This document shows, piece by piece, positions 12,201 to 28,204 of a DNA stretch of 64,000 nt. The notes beneath the pieces are model-generated. The model did no database searches, was not told the origin of the DNA, and worked only from the letters and a program-made list of their open reading frames with translations. A program made the translations under genes and the position numbers. Each line of letters opens with the position of its first letter. Position 1 is the stretch's first letter. The DNA lies in the NCBI RefSeq assembly GCF_024713945.1, contig NC_134679.1, forward strand, positions 3,911,001 through 3,975,000, written 5' to 3'. This DNA is from Dermatophagoides farinae. Taxonomy: Eukaryota; Arthropoda; Arachnida; Sarcoptiformes; Pyroglyphidae.

Positions 12201-15200
12201 CAGAGAGAAACAGGAAAGCAAAAATGTATGATTTCGTTCCAACGTTTGAATTTCCATCACAAAATCTCTCCATGTGAATGTATTGCAATTATTTTTTATT
12301 CCTTTTCTTTCACAAGCTAGATTCTATAAATTCACAAACACGGACACGAATTGAATTTTGAATGAAAATAAAATCATCGGTTGCTGCATGCATGCATATA
12401 TTATTAGCATTGTATTCCAATATCATTACTTATTGGCATTCAATACAGAATCGAACAGCAATAACAAAACATGACAAAGAATTGAATTTGTCTCATCATA
12501 AATTTACCGAATAAAAAAAATACTAATAACCGTGATAACGGTGATAATAATAGGCTCTAGAATTTCAAATAGTATAAACAGATGAAAAAACCAGCCAGCC
12601 AGCAAGTATTTGATAATTTTTCCTCGTGTTCGACTAACTAGAAAAAATGTATTACAACCCACTTTTTTCATCATTTATGTTTATCATGGTTGCAGACGCA
12701 CGATAACATTGTCGTAAAAAAAGGAGGAAAAACATTTTTTTTGTAACTATGAATTCACTAAAATATAATTCGTTAAATTTTCCGTGAACAATTTGATTTT
12801 CATAGTAAAAAAAAATTATGCCCACCTCATTGAATTTAATGGTAAATCATCCGAAGCAATAGTTTTGTCTGCGTCACCATCATCATCATCGGGTGATAAT
12901 GTCGATATCGAATCGTTGATTGTAAGATCATTCAGTTGTTCACTATTATCATTTGCAGTATGAAATGTTGTCAATGTTTTCAATTGATTTAATGGTTCAT
13001 TTTTATTATCAATACTATCCATTATGATTATTCGATCATCACTATTTTTGTTATTGTTATTAGTTGATGACGAATCACAATGAACAATTTGATCTGGATG
13101 TTGTGGATTTGAATTGGAATGTTGATGATGATCATCTTCATCATCAAACGCATCATCGAAAGCATCATAAAATTCATCCATATCGGTCGCCATTGATGTT
13201 TGCGATAGACATGCAAATGATCGTACAAGACTCTGATTCAATGATATTAGATTAGAATTATGTATAGATTGATCAGCTATAATCGAATTATTTTGAGCAA
13301 CATCGGTCGGCATTGATGTTGAGATAGAATGTTGCTGTCTGGCAGTAGAATTAAGAATGGAACGTGTAACTGATCGTTCTAGATCATGATGTTCATGGGC
13401 TAATAATTGTAAAGCTTCTTCCAATGCACGAACCTTTTCCTGTTCTTGTTGTATCAATGTTTGTCGTGACTACATCAGTATTTTGTAAGCATAAAATTTA
13501 TTAATTTTAGATAGAAAAAAATAATAAATTACGAACCTGATTCTGATGAGATATCAATACTAAACATTGTGTCAATGATGAGTTGGCATTTTTTGATGAT
13601 TCCAAAATCAAATTTAAATGAAATTTAATTGAAGGTATTGTAGAACGAGAAATTGAATCTATTGATTGCACTGAATGAAAACTATCATTGGAAAATTGGT
13701 CATCACGATTTCTTTCAGCTATATTTTCGAAAATGAATAGGAAAAAAATCAATATTTTGTCATCAATATTTATCATTTAAATATAAAAATAATAATAAAA
13801 AAATACATTCAAAACATACGAGAAAAGAATAGGGTCTCATCATTCAATAATTGCTGTAATGCATTGATATGTCGTTCAAGAATTTTTTGATGTGCATTCG
13901 CTGTCACTATCATATCCTGTATGGCCATTGGTGATAATAATTGTTTGGCAGCCTCCTCTTCATCATCCGAATCATCGCCCATATGAGTGCCCTGTGGTTA
14001 TTTATTCAGAAAAAATAATATTTGAGTCAAAAAAAATAAAATATAAAAAACATACTTGTTTGATAAAATTCGTGCTGAAATAAATATGATCATTGATGGC
14101 GTTAATCCATTTTTGCAAATTAAGTTCGGACTGATTTTTCGGCAGTCCTAACATTGCTCGAGATCGATCACCGAATATGATAATGAAACACAATGGCTGT
14201 GGAGATGGTGATTGTTGTTGATGTTTATGATCAAGATTACTGGATATTGAGCTCGAAATGGATGGACTATTGCTATTATTATTGCCAACATTATCATGTA
14301 CGACTTCGGTAATGGCGTTATCTAGATATTTATAACCTTTTCTTCTGACTCCGGTAGCTGCATCAGCTCGATTTTGAAAATACGAAAACACACCCCTTTC
14401 GAGAATGACCCATACTGGTCGCCAACCAAAAAATCGTGCTTTACGTAAAAGGCATCCTTCGAAACGAGCAACAGATTTATTTTTCAATGATGCAACCACT
14501 CTTGGTGTCATCACTGACAAATGTGCTTCCTGTATTAATTGTTTTAGCGAAATTGTCGCTGCCACATTAGAAGCCAATTGTCCGCGTTTATTTTTGATCG
14601 CAGTGTCGATACCATTTTTGAGTAGAAAAATGACTACTTCGGTCTGTCCACGATAAGCAGCACAATGTAGGGCAGTATTGCCCGATGAATCAGTACAATT
14701 AATATTGATACCATTGTTTGTATCTTCAAGCAATTCTTTTATGACGGAAATTTGTCCAGATCGTGCTGCACTAAGGTAACGTTCTTCACGACGTTTTATG
14801 TCAAATTTTTCGGCTGCCGATAATAATTTCTGTATTGAATCGGTTTTAGCTAATTCGAATGCTCGAAGAGAATCACCATTAGAAATGAAAACGTTTGCCT
14901 GATGTGCAAGCAATAATATGACAATATTTTCACGGCCAGTATAGGCTGCTTTATGCAAAGGTGTATCACCTTCTTCATTTTGTATGTTAACATCGGCACC
15001 ATTTTTCAATAGAATTTCTACCACTTCATAATGACCGAAATATGTGGCCAAATGTAATGGTGACCAGCCAAAATTGGCTTTAACTGTACCTTTACAATCA
15101 ATATTCAGAGCAATCTCATGAGCATTACGAAGACTTAATAATTTTTTCACTAATTGCACTTGTCCGATACGAGAAAAATGTAGAAGGAATTCTTCAGAAG

Positions 15201-17770: not shown

Positions 17771-18995
17771 TTGAATTCACAATGATGATAATGTCACCAC
17801 AATTACAGCATCATAATTTTCAACACCACCAACAACAACAATGGAATATTGTACATGTGACAAAAAATGATAATAATTGAATCAAATAATTTTTCGTAAA
17901 TTAAATCACTATTTTATATTTTATTCATTTAAATATATTAATTAAAAGTTGAGTTATAAAATCATAACTATTTTAGTCGTAAAATTTAAATTCTTATATG
18001 TCAAGAAGCATTCGACGATGAGCGAAAACAGATTCGAAAATAGTTTTGAATTTGGTCAACAAATGAGTTATTATGGAATCCAGAATCAAAATTCTCCATT
18101 GGATATTCTTCTATAAATTTTTTTAGAGTTGAATTTGACTGTGATAAGTCATTGATTTCTTTATACGAACCGATTCGTATGCATCGAGTATTATGGACAA
18201 TGAAATGAAAAGATAAATGCGACTAAACCACCATATAAGACTTGATTTTTTCACATCAGTGGAAAAAAATGTAGCAAACATATCATCACCGTTCATAATT
18301 GAAAACAAACATTAGAATGTTAGCTTAGCGTACGAAATTTGAGATGATGAGGACCCAAAACGACCGAACCACAAAAACAAAATCCTCTGTAAAATGATAA
18401 AATTTTTAAACAATTTTTTTTATAAACTAATGATGAACAATTACACTAACCAATAAACTAAAAATGCACAGAGACAGAACCGCAAAACGTTTAGAAAAGA
18501 TTTCTTCAATGTTACAATAAGAGAATGTTGTATGATTGAAAATAGGCAAAATAACGTAATAATGGAAACCAAACCAAAAGATTACCAATGCCTAAAAATA
18601 GCGAACAGCTAACAGAAAAAAAATTATAACCAATTTAATTTGAAACATAAATATTTAACAAACCTATTCATCTTTTTTACTGATACAATTGGACTATCAC
18701 CTTTATGGTTTCTACAAATTGATAATAATGATGAACCATTGTTGTAGTGAGAATCAATTGAATGCAAAACGAACAATATTTAATAATAAATATGTCGTGG
18801 GATCGTTTGTGAAAATCGGATTTTTATTTGTTGTCGAGTTGTGTGTGTTAGTGTTCCTGACTCGGAATTTTCGGCTGAAAAACGTGCTCGTTCTCTCTCA
18901 CCGACATTCTCGGTCGAAATAGGGGAAAGTAGAAATAGGCAGGAGCATGCGCAGCCAGTAATGCTACATATATACAGTGATATAATACAAATATA

Positions 18996-19205
18996 CAGTA
19001 ATACCCCGCTTAACGCGGGGTTACGTTCCAAAAATATTGAGCGTAAAGCGAAACAACAGCGCAAAGCGGGGTTATTTTTGCATAATTTACATAATGCATT
19101 TTTACTCTTCATATACAATGTAACAATGTATTGCAATGTAATGTAATTGCACAGCGTTATATCGAAACAGCGCTAATCGGGGCAGCGTTAAGCGAAGTAT
19201 TTCTG
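18996..19205. mobile_element. 210-bp Tigger-like MITE, left copy
   Basis: The element starts CAGTAATACCCCGCTTAACG and ends with the near-complement GCGTTAAGCGAAGTATTTCTG, flanked by TA on both sides. It has no coding capacity of its own. The TIR style (CAGTA...CCGC) resembles the larger element at 15724-16359 but the two are not the same family. An identical-length copy lies at 23428-23637 in the other arm, so it was present before the arms were duplicated or is part of a composite element. Confidence 0.8.
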
Positions 19206-19355
19206 TAATGTCGTAAAATATGATTGTTATATACGACCATAATTACGTTCTATATTATGGGGGAGGATAATGGTCTGGGGGAAAATTACCCCATCATTTA
19301 TAAATTTGCCTCCCCCATTTACACACATTAACACATATACACGCATATACACATT

Positions 19356-19392
19356 CGACGTCGGTTCAAATCCCATCGCGGCCGCCTGGGTT
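19356..19392 (+). repeat. tRNA-like 3' segment (B box) inside the repeat arm
   Basis: GACGTCGGTTCAAATCCCATCG followed by CGGCCGCC resembles the T arm and 3' acceptor side of a tRNA, with GGTTCAAATCC matching the RNA polymerase III B box consensus. No A box, anticodon arm or 5' acceptor strand lies upstream, so this is not an intact tRNA gene. It is repeated in the right arm at about 23245-23275. It may come from a tRNA-derived SINE or have been captured by the element. Confidence 0.5.
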
Positions 19393-19394
19393 AA

Positions 19395-19915
19395 TATAAA
19401 AAATAGTCAGTGTTGGGGGTGGATAGTGGTTTGCGCATAATCACTTATAAATTTGCCTCCCCCTCGCTTATAAAACCTATTTGTTGGGGAGGATAGTGGT
19501 ATGGACCATAATTGTCCGATCACTTATAAATTTGCCCCCCAATTATTTATATACACATTTACACTTGCGCTTAAAGTAATTTAAAAAATAGTCAGTGTTG
19601 GGGGTGGATAGTGGTTTGCGCATAATCACTTATAAATTTGCCTCCCCCTCGCTTATAAAACCTATTTGTTGGGGAGGATAGTGGTATGGACCATAATTGT
19701 CCGATCACTTATAAATTTGCCCCCCAATTATTCATATACACATTTACACTTGCGCATAAAGTAATTTAAAAAATAGTCAGTGCTGGGGGTGGATAGTGGA
19801 CAATCACTTATAAATTGGCCTCCCCCTCGCTTATAAAACCTATTTGTTGGGGAGGATAGTGGCATGGACCATAATTGTCCAATCACTTATAAATTTGCCC
19901 CCCAATTATTTATTA
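19395..19915. repeat. Tandem array of about 185-bp units, left arm
   Basis: The landmark GTCAGTGTTGGGGGTGGATA (GCTG in the third unit) recurs at 185-bp spacing (G-run starts near 19415, 19600, 19785). Each unit contains two inverted copies of a motif like GGGGGAGGCAAATTTATAAG, so single units can fold. The third unit is shortened. A related array of about 168-bp units is in the right arm (22762-23240). Confidence 0.85.
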
Positions 19916-20027
19916 AACAAATTAATCTCGAGTATCAAAATATGACTTTATTGATCGAACGAAAAAAACGAATTAATAATTACAACTATCATTTAAATCA
20001 CACAACACTTTATGTGTTGACTTTTTG

Positions 20028-20106
20028 GCCACATTACAAGTGAACACTATATCTGATCCTTTTAGCGAACTTAAATGAGCAAATTGTTTCAAAAGTAATG
20101 GTGATT
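20028..20106 (-). pseudogene. Cassette D Ig exon, truncated by the inverted-repeat arm
   Basis: After a good acceptor (TTTTTTTTCTACCAG) the exon reads ESPLLLKQFAHLSSLKGSDI then VFTCNVAK, closely similar to the start of the Ig exon of cassette A (ESPVLVK...KGSDLVLTCNVAKGSKPL). It stops matching exactly where the repeat arm begins (20027). The Trp and second Cys of the Ig fold are missing, so this exon cannot encode a complete domain. Confidence 0.8.
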
Positions 20107-20173
20107 CTGGTAGAAAAAAAACAGAGAAAACAAATCAATTCAAGTCAAGTAAATTCAATTAATTTTAACTTAC

Positions 20174-20267
20174 CATTTCCGTTAATAATTAACGTGTGGA
20201 ATATTAACAAAATGATGATTTGAATACACCATTTTAAAATGATACGACCACTAAACCGACAAAACAT
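20174..20267 (-). CDS. Cassette D signal-peptide exon (Dscam-like cluster)
   Basis: ATG at 20267 opens MFCRFSGRIILKWCIQIII followed by LLIFHTLIINGNG, a basic N-region and a long hydrophobic core. The exon ends in phase 1 at a consensus donor (G|GTAAGT at 20174). The layout is the same as cassettes A and C: signal exon, short intron, Ig exon. The CTCF-like element at 20384-20398 lies 117 bp upstream of the ATG. Its Ig partner is truncated, so the cassette is probably dead. An upstream start in the same frame at 20336 would add residues before the hydrophobic core and is less likely. Confidence 0.6.
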
Positions 20268-20383
20268 TTTGAAAAATGCTTTATGATTATTATGATGAAC
20301 AGAAAGAGACAGCATTATGTGAAAACACTCAAACAATGGTAAATTTAGATAAAAAAAATTAATGATTTAAAACTGAATCGATA

Positions 20384-20398
20384 GCGCCGCGTTTTGGC
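20384..20398 (-). promoter_or_regulatory. CTCF-like 15-bp element upstream of cassette D
   Basis: The minus strand reads CCAAAACGCGGCGCT, identical to the element of cassette A. It lies 117 bp before the cassette D start codon. It fits the pattern CCAnnAnnnGGCGCT shared by the cassettes, which resembles the CTCF core (CCANNAGRKGGC). Binding is not shown by the sequence. Confidence 0.55.
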
Positions 20399-20447
20399 CG
20401 AAAACATGATCAAAAACAAACAAACAAACGGAAAAACAAACAACTAC

Positions 20448-20863
20448 CTTGCACTTGAAGCAATGTCCATTGAATATCGATTCCAAACTGATTGCCTACG
20501 ATACAAGAATAATTTCCCGAATCAGCAGCTTTCAATTTTGAAATGGTTAAAAATGATAGAAAATTATCTGTTTTAATCTGATATGATAATTCCGGATTTC
20601 TATGTCTAAGTAATTCTTGTTCATTTTTAAACCATTTGAACGATAGTGGTGTTGAACCACTGATAACCGAACATGGAATATTCAATACTGATCCTTCAGA
20701 TTGATTCAATTCTGTTGAAAACAATTTAGAAATTCGAGGTGCATCTGAAGGAAAAACAAGGGATTGACATTAGAAACGTAAAATTAGAAAAAAAAATTCT
20801 CCAACCTTTTGAAGCATAAATAACCGTGAATGAAATACAGAAAAACAGCAACAATTTAAACAT
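20448..20863 (-). CDS. Cassette C: signal exon plus single Ig-domain exon, sDscam-like
   Basis: Signal exon 20863-20806 encodes MFKLLLFFCISFTVIYASK and ends in phase 1 (AAAAG|GTTGG). Ig exon 20744-20448 follows an acceptor TTCAG, is 297 nt, phase 1-1, and encodes DAPRISKLFSTELNQSEGSV to GIDIQWTLLQVQ. It keeps the Ig hallmarks: first Cys (IPCSV), Trp (FKWFK), and D-S-G-N-Y-S-C with the second Cys. The donor after it (CAAG|GTAGTTG) shows that it should splice to downstream exons. In chelicerate sDscam genes such exons are alternative 5' cassettes joined to shared downstream exons (family knowledge). No constant exons are visible downstream in this window, so either they are remote or the cluster is orphaned. 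Confidence 0.7.
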
Positions 20864-20987
20864 TGTGAATGTTTTTAAACATTTCACAACACAACACAAC
20901 AACAACAAAATGATAATCAATTCAAGTAGAAAAAAATGAAGATGACCAGAAAAAATTAATTTTTGGTAAAACAAATTATGCATTAAA

Positions 20988-21002
20988 AGGGCCACCTATT
21001 GG
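20988..21002 (-). promoter_or_regulatory. CTCF-like 15-bp element upstream of cassette C
   Basis: The minus strand reads CCAATAGGTGGCCCT, 125 bp before the cassette C start codon. Of the four copies this one fits the CTCF core CCANNAGRKGGC best. It differs from the others by GGCCCT in place of GGCGCT. Confidence 0.5.
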
Positions 21003-21039
21003 TCAAGCAAATCACGATTATAATAAATAGCAATCAAAC

Positions 21040-21410
21040 CTTGTATGACAAGTTTTGTTGTAATCGAATCAGTACCATGAACATTCCTGGCATTACATGT
21101 ATAGGTTCCGGTATCATCATTTGAATTAAGACGTTTGAATACAATCGATGACATTGTATCATAAATAACAATTTTATATTCAGTCGAAGATAATTTCTTA
21201 TGATCATCTTTGTACCATTCAAAAAATATTGATGTCGATCCTGATGAAATGGAACATGGTAATATGTATGATGAATTAATGGAAAGATTAATTTCAGATG
21301 CAGGAAATTTATTCAGAAACATCGAAAACAAAAATTCAAATGAATTACCAGCATCAATTGAATGAAAGTAAAAAGTTGAAAAAATCACCGTTAATAAAAT
21401 TATTATTATG
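21040..21410 (-). pseudogene. Cassette B: Ig exon with damaged signal exon and acceptor
   Basis: The Ig part (about 21302-21040) keeps both Cys (LPCSI, YTCNA) and the Trp (FEWYK), and ends in a donor at CAAG|GTTTGA. A hydrophobic leader-like reading (IIIILLTVIFSTFYFHSIDA) precedes it at the usual distance, but the start position is ATA, not ATG, and the nearest upstream ATG terminates after six codons. The expected splice acceptor is TTTCCTGCATCTG, with no AG. The frame stays open from the leader through the 'intron' into the Ig exon. I infer loss of the start codon and acceptor; an unusual unspliced reading cannot be excluded. Confidence 0.6.
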
Positions 21411-21517
21411 TCAGAAACAATGTGTGTTCATACTCTTAAACTTAAGTATACATTTCATGGGTAAAATTATTTTATGCAAAACAAAAAAAAAATTATAACC
21501 CACAAAATGGTAAAATT

Positions 21518-21532
21518 AGCGCCATATATTGG
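21518..21532 (-). promoter_or_regulatory. CTCF-like 15-bp element upstream of cassette B
   Basis: The minus strand reads CCAATATATGGCGCT. It lies about 108 bp before the position where the cassette B start codon would be, the same spacing as in the intact cassettes, although the cassette itself is damaged. Confidence 0.5.
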
Positions 21533-21564
21533 CCAATAAAAAACATTGAATAAATTGTTCAAAC

Positions 21565-21974
21565 CTGTAACCGTTAGTTGAATCCAAAGTTTATCGAATC
21601 CGAATTTATTGGTAACAACACAGGAATAATTTCCCACATCATTGGAATCGATATTTCTCAATGTAAAAAAAGAGAAAATATCTTTATTTTCAATTGTCGA
21701 TCGTCCAGTATTGGATAATTCAACACCATTTTTGAACCATTGAAACCGTAATGGTTTACTGCCTTTGGCTACATTACAAGTCAACACAAGATCTGAACCT
21801 TTGGTTTGTTCATTTTTTGAATAAAGTTTAACGAGTACTGGAGATTCTATATTTAAAAAGATAAAAAATTGAATTAATTGAAGCAATGAATAATTGACAA
21901 ACAGACTTACCATCGCTGTGAACAGATGAAATAAAAATGATCAAAGCGAAAAACTTGGAAATAAAATTCAGCAT
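21565..21974 (-). CDS. Cassette A: signal exon plus single Ig-domain exon, sDscam-like
   Basis: Signal exon 21974-21911 encodes MLNFISKFFALIIFISSVHSD and ends at a consensus donor (GATG|GTAAGT). Ig exon 21846-21565 is 282 nt, phase 1-1, and encodes ESPVLVKLYSKNEQTKGSDL through GFDKLWIQLTVT. The Ig hallmarks are complete: LTCNV, FQWFK, DSNDVGNYSCVV. The donor (ACAG|GTTTGA) implies splicing to a further exon. This is the most intact of the four cassettes. sDscam proteins are cell-surface recognition molecules with isoforms chosen from tandem 5' cassettes, each with its own promoter (family knowledge). Alternative reading: a simple single-Ig gene family that shares ancestry with Dscam. Confidence 0.72.
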
Positions 21975-22078
21975 TTTCACAGGCAAATTTCTTGTAACCA
22001 AACATTGAATGTGAGTAACACAATCGAAAAAAGTATTTTGGACAGAAAATTCAAAATCAAGTTTTCAATAAGATAATT

Positions 22079-22093
22079 AGCGCCGCGTTTTGG
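22079..22093 (-). promoter_or_regulatory. CTCF-like 15-bp element upstream of cassette A
   Basis: The minus strand reads CCAAAACGCGGCGCT, 105 bp before the cassette A start codon, and is identical over all 15 bp to the element of cassette D. The flanking bases are not conserved to the same degree, which argues for selection or functional constraint on the core. Confidence 0.55.
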
Positions 22094-22149
22094 TGAAAAT
22101 TATGATGAAAAATTTAGAATTTAATCTAAACCTCAAATTCGATACCACA

Positions 22150-22435
22150 ATTAAATTAAAAGCAAACCTTGTCTTGTTTTTTTGTAATCGAATTACGATT
22201 ATCTCCTTGATGCCATCGTAATGAAATAGAATTTGACGTGGTTTCCTTTTGCAATTAGAAGTTGTGCAGGTGGTATATCTCCATCAAGTGTACGTTTCAG
22301 CACTACTTGTGATTGTGGTCCACTTCCGGCCAAAATTTAAGTTTTAACAAAGATTTCATATTTTGTTCCATGTGATAGGTCACGTAGGAAATATTCATAA
22401 ACCTCGTTTTCAATTTGATTAACTTCTGCACAGAG
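22150..22435 (-). pseudogene. Broken fibronectin type III exon of Dscam type
   Basis: After an acceptor (CTCTGTGCAG) the minus strand reads EVNQIENEVYEYFLRDLSHG then TKYEIFVKT, an in-frame TAA, ILAGSGPQSQVVLKRTLDG and DIPPAQLLIAK. After a one-base shift it continues TSNSISLRWHQGDNRNSI. This is the end of one FNIII domain (YxxxLxxGTxYxIxVxAxNxxGxG) and the start of the next (SITLRWHQWxDNG), in the wording typical of Dscam (family knowledge). The stop and the frameshift make it non-functional. It supports a Dscam origin for the neighbouring Ig cassettes and indicates that a further Dscam copy once lay here. Confidence 0.75.
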
Positions 22436-22761
22436 ACACAGAGACGAAAGTCTGCGGTGTACACTGCAAGGTGAAATTTATCATAACATGAGACATACCC
22501 GAAATATTGGTTAACATTTGTCAGTACCAAATAATCATCATAACTCGATATGGTTGAGAATTTCATGATCATTTCATCAAAAATGAACAAGACGAAACTT
22601 GAGAAAAAACGAGCATTTTTGCACAAAGACAGCGAGTACAAAAAGTCAACACATAAAGTGTTGTGTGATTTAAATGATAGTTGTAATTATTAATTCGTTT
22701 TTGTCGTTCCATCAATAAAGTCATATTTTGATACTCGAGATTAATTTGTTTAATAAATAAT

Positions 22762-23240
22762 TGGGGGGCAAATTTATAAGTGATTGGACAATTATGGTCC
22801 ATGCCACTATCCTCCCCAACAAATAGGTTTTATAAGCGAGGGGGAGGCAAATTTATAAGTGATTGTCCACTATCCACCCCCAACACTGACTATTTTTTAA
22901 ATTAATTTATATGTAATGTGTAAATGTGTATATAAATAATTGGGGGGCAAATTTATAAGTGATTGTCCACTATCCTCCCCAACAAATAGGTTTTATAAGC
23001 GAGGGAGAGGCAAATTTATAAGTGATTGCGCAAACCACTATCCACCCCCAACACTGACTATTTTTTAAATTACTTTATGCGCAAGTGTGTATGTGTATAT
23101 AAATAATTGGGGGGCAAATTTATAAGTGATTGTCCACTATCCTCCCCAACAAATAGGTTTTATAAGCGAGGGGGAGGCAAATTTATAAGTGATTATGCGC
23201 AAACCACTATCCACCCCCAGCACTGACTATTTTTTATATT
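22762..23240. repeat. Tandem array of about 168-bp units, right arm
   Basis: The landmark CCACCCCCAACACTGAC (CCACCCCCAGCACTGAC in the last unit) recurs at 168-169 bp spacing (starts near 22874, 23042, 23211). Compared with the 185-bp units of the left arm, these units mostly lack the piece with GGACCATAATTGTCC, which survives only in the innermost copy near 22785. The arms have therefore diverged by unit turnover since they formed. Confidence 0.8.
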
Positions 23241-23427
23241 AACCCAGGCGGCCGCGATGGGATTTGAACCGACGTCGAATGTGTATATGCGTGTATATGT
23301 GTTAATGTGTGTAAATGGGGGAGGCAAATTTATAAATGATGGGGTAATTTTCCCCCAGACCATTATCCTCCCCCATAATATAGAACGTAATTATGGTCGT
23401 ATATAACAATCATATTTTACGACATTA

Positions 23428-23637
23428 CAGAAATACTTCGCTTAACGCTGCCCCGATTAGCGCTGTTTCGATATAACGCTTTGCAATTACATTACATTGC
23501 AATACATTGTTACATTGTATATGAAGAGTAAAAATGCATTATGTAAATTATGCAAAAATAACCCCGCTTTGCGCTGTTGTTTCGCTTTACGCTCAATATT
23601 TTTGGAACGTAACCCCGCGTTAAGCGGGGTATTACTG
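23428..23637. mobile_element. 210-bp Tigger-like MITE, right copy
   Basis: This is the reverse-complement counterpart of 18996-19205, with the same length and TA flanks. The terminal repeats are CAGAAATACTTCGCTTAACG at this end and GCGGGGTATTACTG at the other. Confidence 0.8.
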
Positions 23638-24499
23638 TATATTTGTATTATATCACTGTATATATGTAGCATTACTGGCTGCGCATGCTCCTGCCTATTT
23701 CTACTTTCCCCTATTTCGACCGAGAATGTCGGTGAGAGAGAACGAGCACGTTTTTCAGCCGAAAATTCCGAGTCTGGAACACTAACACACACAACTCGAC
23801 AACAAATAAAAATCCGATTTTCACAAACGATCCCACGACATATTTATTATTAAATATTGTTCGTTTTGCATTCAATTGATTCTCACTACAACAATGGTTC
23901 ATCATTATTATCAATTTGTAGAAACCATAAAGGTGATAGTCCAATTGTATCAGTAAAAAAGATGAATAGGTTTGTTAAATATTTATGTTTCAAATTAAAT
24001 TGGTTATAATTTTTTTTCTGTTAGCTGTTCGCTATTTTTAGGCATTGGTAATCTTTTGGTTTGGTTTCCATTATATTACGTTATTTTGCCTATTTTCAAT
24101 CATACAACATTCTCTTATTGTAACATTGAAGAAATCTTTTCTAAACGTTTTGCGGTTCTGTCTCTGTGCATTTTTAGTTTATTGGTTAGTGTAATTGTTC
24201 ATCATTAGTTTATAAAAAAAAATTGTTTAAAAATTTTATCATTTTACAGAGGATTTTGTTTTTGTGGTTCGGTCGTTTTGGGTCCTCATCATCTCAAATT
24301 TCGTACGCTAAGCTAACATTGGAATGTTTGTTTTCAATTATGAACGGTGATGATATGTTTGCTACATTTTTTTCCACTGATGTGAAAAAATCAAGTCTTA
24401 TACGATTACGATCAATGGTGTAATAGTTCTATAAATTAAGCATGTTTACCAGTTATTCATTATTATTAAAAATCATTTATACCATTCTAAAAGCCTATC

Positions 24500-27552: not shown

Positions 27553-28204
27553 TGATGATCCTTGATGCTACCTGCTTTCAATGCTTGATAAATTTGCTTT
27601 GCTCTTTTACATCCGATGATTCTATCATGATTATCGTCATCCAAAGAACTGTACAATAGATTTTTAGCCGCATACATACATTTCTCTTTATATCAATTAC
27701 TGATTACTGAGTTTACTGATTACTTTGGGTTACTTTTGGTTACTTTGGGTTCCGTATTGAGATACAGAAAAAAAACAAAATAAACATTCCAATTGTGTTA
27801 ATTTATGGCGAAAAAAGAACGTCTTATATCGAAAACAGCCATACATTTAAATAAACAATTTTGCAAGATAGAAAATTCGTAAATCAATCAAGCGCCATCT
27901 ATATCTAATCTTAAAATGCATTTTATTTTTTATTTTTCAATCAATATTAAAAAAAATGAAATAAATTACAAAAATAAAAGATGCTTGTACATGGACAAAT
28001 ACACAAACATCTTTATTAACTTGAACAGAAACGAAAATCCATGTTGTTTTTTTTTGAGTTTGTTTGATGATAAACTCATCGATTTTAATTATAATGGTGA
28101 TTATGATTGTCATTGGCGGCATATGATATTTGGTTCAATTCAATCGAATTATATTTGTCTGAATAAAACTTGATTGAGATTGACATTCTGATTAACATTG
28201 AACA
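27553..28204. other. Mixed interval between the non-LTR relic and SURF4
   Basis: A short minus-strand open stretch at about 27555-27690 (MYAAKNLLYSSLDDDNHDRI followed by IGCKRAKQIYQALKAG) is not low-complexity and may be the 5' remainder of the retrotransposon or an unknown fragment. At 27695-27755 there is a degenerate repeat of TACTGATTACT / GGTTACTTTTGG. At 27891-27905 the minus strand has a CTCF-like AGATGGCGCT. The last 200 bp before SURF4 should include its 3' UTR. Confidence 0.4.

Follow-up and report, generated by a model that had tools for sequence, protein, structure and literature searches.

The analysed window, a 64-kb stretch of Dermatophagoides farinae contig 3, carries on its minus strand a short tandem array of sDscam-type cassettes, in which signal exons are combined with Ig exons. 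In cassette 1, the signal exon (MLNFISKFFALIIFISSVHSD; 21911-21974, with the ATG read and the 3' end presumed) is the same as in cluster A, one of the three sDscam-type clusters considered below, and the Ig exon (21566-21847) was recovered by a translated search as a stop-free match of 94 amino acids. The same search detected the Ig exons of cassette 2 (21044-21274), for which no signal exon was found, and of cassette 3 (20452-20745), which is open in the window. Cassette 4 (20024-20107) ends inside its Ig exon at a repeat junction (20024); beyond it the translated search gave no Ig matches in the window, and the match to cluster A stops at 20024 as well, so that the window copy appears to lack constant exons downstream of its cassettes.

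According to the first-pass annotation, four CTCF-like 15-mers stand on the minus strand of this array, each 105-125 bp before the start, or the former start, of a cassette. All four elements were confirmed. Element 1 (CCAAAACGCGGCGCT; 22079-22093) is an exact match to the pattern CCANNANNNGGCNCT and lies 104 bp 5' of the ATG at 21974, while the other three match this pattern as well. Element 2 (CCAATATATGGCGCT; 21518-21532) has no recognisable signal exon, for which the wording “former start” is fair. Element 3 (CCAATAGGTGGCCCT; 20988-21002) lies 124 bp 5' of the ATG at 20863. Element 4, which repeats the 15-mer of element 1 (CCAAAACGCGGCGCT), lies 115 bp 5' of the ATG at 20267 and occupies 20383-20397, one base lower than the originally reported 20384-20398. 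The elements had also been said to occur nowhere else in the cluster, and the pattern CCANNANNNGGCNCT indeed gives exactly four matches in the 64 kb, namely these four elements, against 0.05 expected; none of 100 shuffled sequences contained four matches (mean 0.05).

The resemblance to the CTCF core is a different matter. In the window, the strict core CCANNAGRKGGC is exact in element 3 only and has one mismatch in element 2; when up to one mismatch is allowed, two occurrences are found against 1.83 expected, which is no enrichment over chance. The vertebrate CTCF matrix, which was not trained on these sites, gives 14.3 bits for element 3, 13.5 bits for element 2 (a score not reached in any of 200 shuffles) and 8.6 bits for element 4. 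Within the region of element 1 the best place for this matrix is elsewhere, and the site of cluster A identical to element 1 has 25.0 bits under the de novo motif presented below. Since the strict-core matches are at chance level, the window alone is too weak for the CTCF reading, and it is in clusters A-C that the resemblance is borne out by both the motif and the matrix fit.

The genomic surroundings of the array clarify its status. The whole segment from 20024 to 22476 (minus strand; 2,453 bases) is 99.3% identical to contig 1:3962256-3964706, which is the 5' end of cluster A, and it is enclosed by two arms of a multicopy repeat, since the arm at 22639-24402 is 96.7% identical, in inverted orientation, to its partner of about 1.8 kb at 18234-20027. 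A search with one arm yielded at least 61 genomic matches, counting every length, with 40 of 133 candidates scored. The sDscam fragment also occurs at contig 2:5.249-5.252 Mb and contig 4:3.732-3.734 Mb, beside repeat copies. Judged by its sequence, the window cluster is a truncated and displaced fragment of cluster A and no working gene. Its four elements are passengers, carried to contig 3 in a fragment of cluster A within an inverted-repeat element, and the mobile unit seems to have spread presumed host promoters together with Ig cassettes (18234-24402 in the window, and the sites on contigs 2 and 4). A reading of the window cassettes as a working promoter array is not supported.

Transposons carrying fragments of host genes are known as Pack-type elements. 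The window unit resembles them in that a host fragment is flanked by long inverted repeats and recurs on contigs 2 and 4 next to repeat copies, which gives it both long inverted arms and a dispersed distribution in several copies. Unlike Pack-type transposons, the unit has no recognised target-site duplication; none was recognised at the repeat copies compared, between which the arm ends vary.

Several other features of this region were observed. Cassette 3 (20452-20745) is stop-free in the window, its counterpart in cluster A (contig 1:3963990-3964280) has two stops and its copies on contigs 2 and 4 have one stop each; the window copy may keep an older reading frame. Contig 1:3958188-3962255, which separates the repeat arm from cluster A, is a stretch of some 4,068 bases that has inverted ends of 17 bases (GGGTATCGCCAAATAGC); it looks like a later insertion at cluster A because it is missing from the window copy. 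The 245 bases at 22184-22428, located 5' of the cassettes, are 83.7% identical to a sequence near contig 1:8137373-8137616, downstream of the cluster B cassettes, and read like a putative fibronectin III remnant.

Since the window cluster is not a working gene, the element was tested in the real clusters of the same genome (62.4 Mb, 22 contigs), to which all cluster comparisons are confined. Repeated translated searches for Ig exons outlined three clusters of sDscam-type cassettes on contig 1: A (3.962-3.974 Mb, plus strand), B (8.127-8.136 Mb, plus strand) and C (8.216-8.209 Mb, minus strand). Under the model built on cluster A, an element of at least 14 bits precedes 41 of the 44 variable Ig cassettes (16/17 in A, 15/15 in B and 10/12 in C). 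The common form is missing from a degenerate cassette of A (16435) and from the two leading cassettes of C. The 44 exclude the constant Ig exons of the three clusters, include the degenerate A 16435 as a miss and do not contain a frame-split cassette of B (13390-13660), which the length filter removed. This count refers to the forward strand only, and the orientation rests on the two-strand motif search and on a two-strand scan of the cassette stretches of the three clusters, in which all 36 sites of at least 16 bits are on the coding strand. The distance to the ATG is narrow: the median is 115 bp among the 26 elements with a retained ATG, and 24 of these 26 lie at 96-137 bp, the two remaining values (150 and 224 bp) being possibly wrong. 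The signal exons were called heuristically, and among the 41 elements 13 had no ATG and two were discarded for an implausibly near one (35 and 1 bp).

The motif was also recovered de novo. A two-strand search of 18 cluster A regions returned a single 16-base motif, forward in 17 of them; the eighteenth is the degenerate 16435, where no real match exists, and the 17 include a constant Ig exon that matches weakly. For the 16 cluster A regions used in the further tests, which leave out the degenerate cassette, the log-likelihood of the motif is 133.2, compared to 59.0-71.0 in eight dinucleotide shuffles. Searched separately, clusters B and C each yield the same motif (other-strand readings AGCGCCACCTTTTGGC and TAGCGCCACCTTTTGG), and the consensus is CCAAAAGGTGGCGCT in each of A, B and C, an agreement that is only partly independent since the three clusters are related to one another. 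No second shared motif was found above the shuffles between the element and the Ig exon (40.3 vs. 34.9-41.5). Thus, nearly every alternative start of the mite sDscam-type clusters carries the same CTCF-like site. The first-pass annotation had linked its reading to enrichment of the motif upstream of other cassettes, and such an enrichment is present in this genome.

A simple source of such regularity might be the history of the clusters themselves, which are built from related cassettes: the element might be a remnant of tandem duplication of the whole promoter, retained without selection, and the identical 15-mer shared by two of the window copies is in line with this. In that case the flanking bases were expected to be conserved equally. 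In cluster A, however, the mean pairwise identity of the 16 sites is 0.64 within the motif and falls to 0.34 on one side and 0.36 on the other (60 bases each), although this alignment was anchored on the motif, so that the dinucleotide-shuffle control is the fairer test of significance. The orthologous cassettes of different clusters, compared with sites below 12 bits left out and gaps counted as differences, again place the motif above its region: 161/176 positions (0.915) are identical vs. 0.779 in the rest of the region for 11 A-B pairs, 138/144 (0.958) vs. 0.836 for nine B-C pairs, and 93/112 (0.830) vs. 0.674 for seven A-C pairs. In just two of the 27 pairs has the motif diverged more than the region around it. 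In this genome, the flanks are more diverged than the motif, and we consider an unselected duplication remnant extremely unlikely. In its simple tandem form it was rejected, since the flanks have diverged and the motif has been kept.

Another explanation treats the element as a core-promoter element used generally in this genome, with nothing specific to sDscam. CTCF-type sites do exist elsewhere in the genome: the strict pattern MNAGRTGGCGCT has 120 matches, and the reversed pattern has eight, an excess suggesting that this mite makes use of a CTCF-type motif (one of the 120 sites lies in the window, at 27891-27902 on the minus strand). Strong sites of the cluster type are nevertheless rare in control DNA, which comprised 120,850 bases from loci not chosen for carrying the pattern. 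At a threshold of 16 bits under the model trained on A, two sites were found there vs. 36 in 27,550 cluster bases, and at 14 bits the control had three sites on both strands. In a hand count over the 62.4 Mb, CCANNANNNGGCGCT has 15 matches in the three clusters and eight in their copies, against 12 elsewhere. A general promoter element was rejected on the rarity of strong sites in control DNA, and among all explanations considered we regard it as the least credible one.

The fit of the motif to CTCF was evaluated in the real clusters. The consensus CCAAAAGGTGGCGCT fits the core CCANNAGRKGGC, while single sites often deviate at core position 7, where 18 of the 41 elements have G, 13 have C and 10 have T, and the CTCF matrix demands G nearly always. 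At p<0.01, seven of the 16 cluster A regions contain a site for the vertebrate matrix. Its 300 column-permuted versions find sites in 0.29 regions on average (maximum three), and none of them reaches the CTCF count or the Fisher score. At the milder level of p<0.05, five of the 16 regions fall short, and among the 11 passing regions there is one whose match lies away from the element. Two CTCF consensus strings give counts of seven and six regions, whereas each of 16 strings for other factors gives one region at most. On this ground E2F, YY1, NRF1, NFY, NFI, CArG, DREF and BEAF, as well as Su(Hw), GAF, Zelda, SP1, GABPA, REST and MTF1, were rejected as better fits. At 8 bits or more, the CTCF matrix gives 26 sites (24 of them forward) in the 27,550 cluster bases vs. 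13 in the 120,850 control bases. The similarity between the motif and the CTCF matrix (10.78) was reached by none of 1000 permutations, the closest of which gave 10.77. The two cluster C cassettes lacking the common form have CTCF-matrix matches of 14.4 and 10.9 bits at the same distance (249 and 247 bp 5' of the Ig exon), and a reverse match of 12.2 bits was found in the first of the two regions as well.

A CTCF gene is present in the mite. Its ortholog (locus L029) is located at contig 6:654-656 kb, and in the PDB one of its exons matches CTCF (7w1m chain H) best. When compared to the human residues (positions -1, 1, 2, 3 and 6), fingers 3 (TSGER) and 5 (DTYKR) are identical, and finger 4 differs just at helix position 1 (ELSKR vs. 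EVSKR in human). Finger 6 reads QSNSA vs. QSGTM, and finger 7 reads RKTDI vs. RKSDV. The N-terminal part of the mite protein, before the fingers, contains NDISVYDFND with the sequence SVYDF, which is also the human sequence and resembles the cohesin-docking motif of human CTCF. A YDF motif mediates the contact of CTCF with STAG2-SCC1 cohesin, as described in excerpts of PMC9159944. The mite SVYDF may point to cohesin docking, although it is only suggestive. The genome also contains DNMT1-type and DNMT2-type genes (contig 2:6134924-6136254 and contig 3:3370184-3371135, respectively), and a Pfam search of it found no third methylase-family locus that might be of the DNMT3 type.

The same data allow one to consider another zinc-finger or promoter factor of the mite, which would share the GGCGCT sequence, be specific to these clusters and have no relation to CTCF. 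Such a factor might explain why position 7 is G in just 18 of the 41 elements despite the conserved finger 5 of CTCF, and why positions 4-5 are A-rich and not S,Y, unlike those of the genome-wide MNAGRTGGCGCT sites; candidates are numerous, since 124 matches to zinc-finger genes were found in the genome, several of them being fragments of one gene. Nevertheless, AGGTGGCGCT is regained in the consensus of each of the three clusters, the CTCF matrix outscores its 300 permutations and the 16 non-CTCF strings, and even the two cassettes of cluster C without the common form carry CTCF-matrix matches. We therefore consider an unrelated factor unlikely, and the element is probably a CTCF site that serves its own promoter, with one such site per alternative promoter. 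The claim of a CTCF-type element per cassette, made originally for the window, is thus supported at the sequence level (41/44 cassettes, the matrix fit and the CTCF ortholog), while the window copy itself is a dispersed fragment and no working promoter array.

A function at the RNA level was considered as well. Exon clusters of insect Dscam1 use intronic pairing between selector sequences and a docking site, and by this precedent the element could act in RNA, e.g., steer splicing as a selector that pairs with its docking site. Use of an upstream promoter would also place it within transcribed introns. The reverse-strand matches expected for pairing are lacking: at 16 bits or more there are none in cluster A plus 10 kb and none in C, and the sole match in B plus 10 kb lies some 12 kb beyond the final cassette. 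A role in RNA thus appears very unlikely.

Under the CTCF reading, each sDscam-type cassette would possess a promoter marked by one site for the mite CTCF, oriented along transcription and placed about 115 bp 5' of the signal-peptide ATG. The mite CTCF would bind this element (e.g., CCAAAACGTGGCGCT), and the bound protein would, most likely, mark, insulate or anchor its promoter. A given cell would then use one or few cassettes, as is the case with the protocadherin CTCF sites. That the regions in question are promoters, that CTCF occupies them and touches cohesin, and that looping governs promoter choice are suppositions drawn from DNA data. Clusters B and C are arranged tail to tail (contig 1:8126846-8214790) with about 74 kb between the arrays, due to which their forward element arrays are convergent. 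One can suggest, quite tentatively, that in chelicerates the choice among the tandem promoters of Dscam-type identity receptors came to depend on CTCF and cohesin, in protocadherin style but by independent evolution, with a single forward CTCF site at each promoter and, in the two tail-to-tail clusters, convergent arrays anchoring on each other. The prediction is precise: it concerns 41 sites on one strand within a narrow distance.

Among the closest known systems are the chelicerate sDscam genes. Excerpts of PMC4835542 and PMC5775551 describe each tandem cassette with its own promoter, and the mite clusters, which consist of tandem signal-exon plus Ig-exon cassettes, resemble the 5' clusters described there; the window copy differs from them in being a fragment of such a cluster. 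The word “motif” is absent from the texts of PMC4835542 and PMC5775551, and CTCF appears only in a reference title of the latter. In the accessible portions of the open-licence literature, we found no report of a CTCF-like element at sDscam promoters and nothing relevant on Hi-C, CTCF or methylation in dust mites.

We know of no case in which Drosophila CTCF sites are arranged as one per alternative promoter of a tandem array. The sequence itself is similar, since the fly sites share AG-GGCGCT (e.g., the reporter site ATGTCAGAGGGCGCT) according to excerpts of PMC7880997, and this string is common to fly and mite sites. According to the abstract of PMC9897668, flies give no evidence for CTCF acting by cohesin looping; if the proposed mechanism is true, the mite clusters would bear on whether arthropod CTCF can act in this way.

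A further comparison is with the clustered protocadherins of vertebrates. In excerpts of PMC7087399 and PMC8787164, the alternate promoters of protocadherin alpha have forward CTCF sites, each with a CpG, and one enhancer is flanked by reverse CTCF sites; looping bears on promoter choice. In the mite clusters, a CTCF-type element is also present per alternative promoter, in forward orientation and with a CpG (38/41 elements), and tandem 5' variable exons precede the constant exons as in the excerpted protocadherin descriptions. There are differences as well: the mite genes are Ig cassettes from an unrelated family and phylum, fewer than half of their elements have G at core position 7, and no strong reverse-oriented site was found past clusters A or B, since the reverse CTCF-matrix sites past the cluster A cassettes are weak (9.1 and 8.5 bits) and the 10 kb past cluster B has none of at least 8 bits. 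The likeness is, in our opinion, one of presumed mechanism and not of family membership. Most likely, the mite clusters are convergent with the clustered protocadherins in having one putative CTCF site per alternative promoter. If each promoter indeed has such a site, vertebrates and chelicerates took up the same DNA-level switch on two separate occasions, and it would be common to two unrelated families of adhesion molecules, the cadherins and the Ig proteins.
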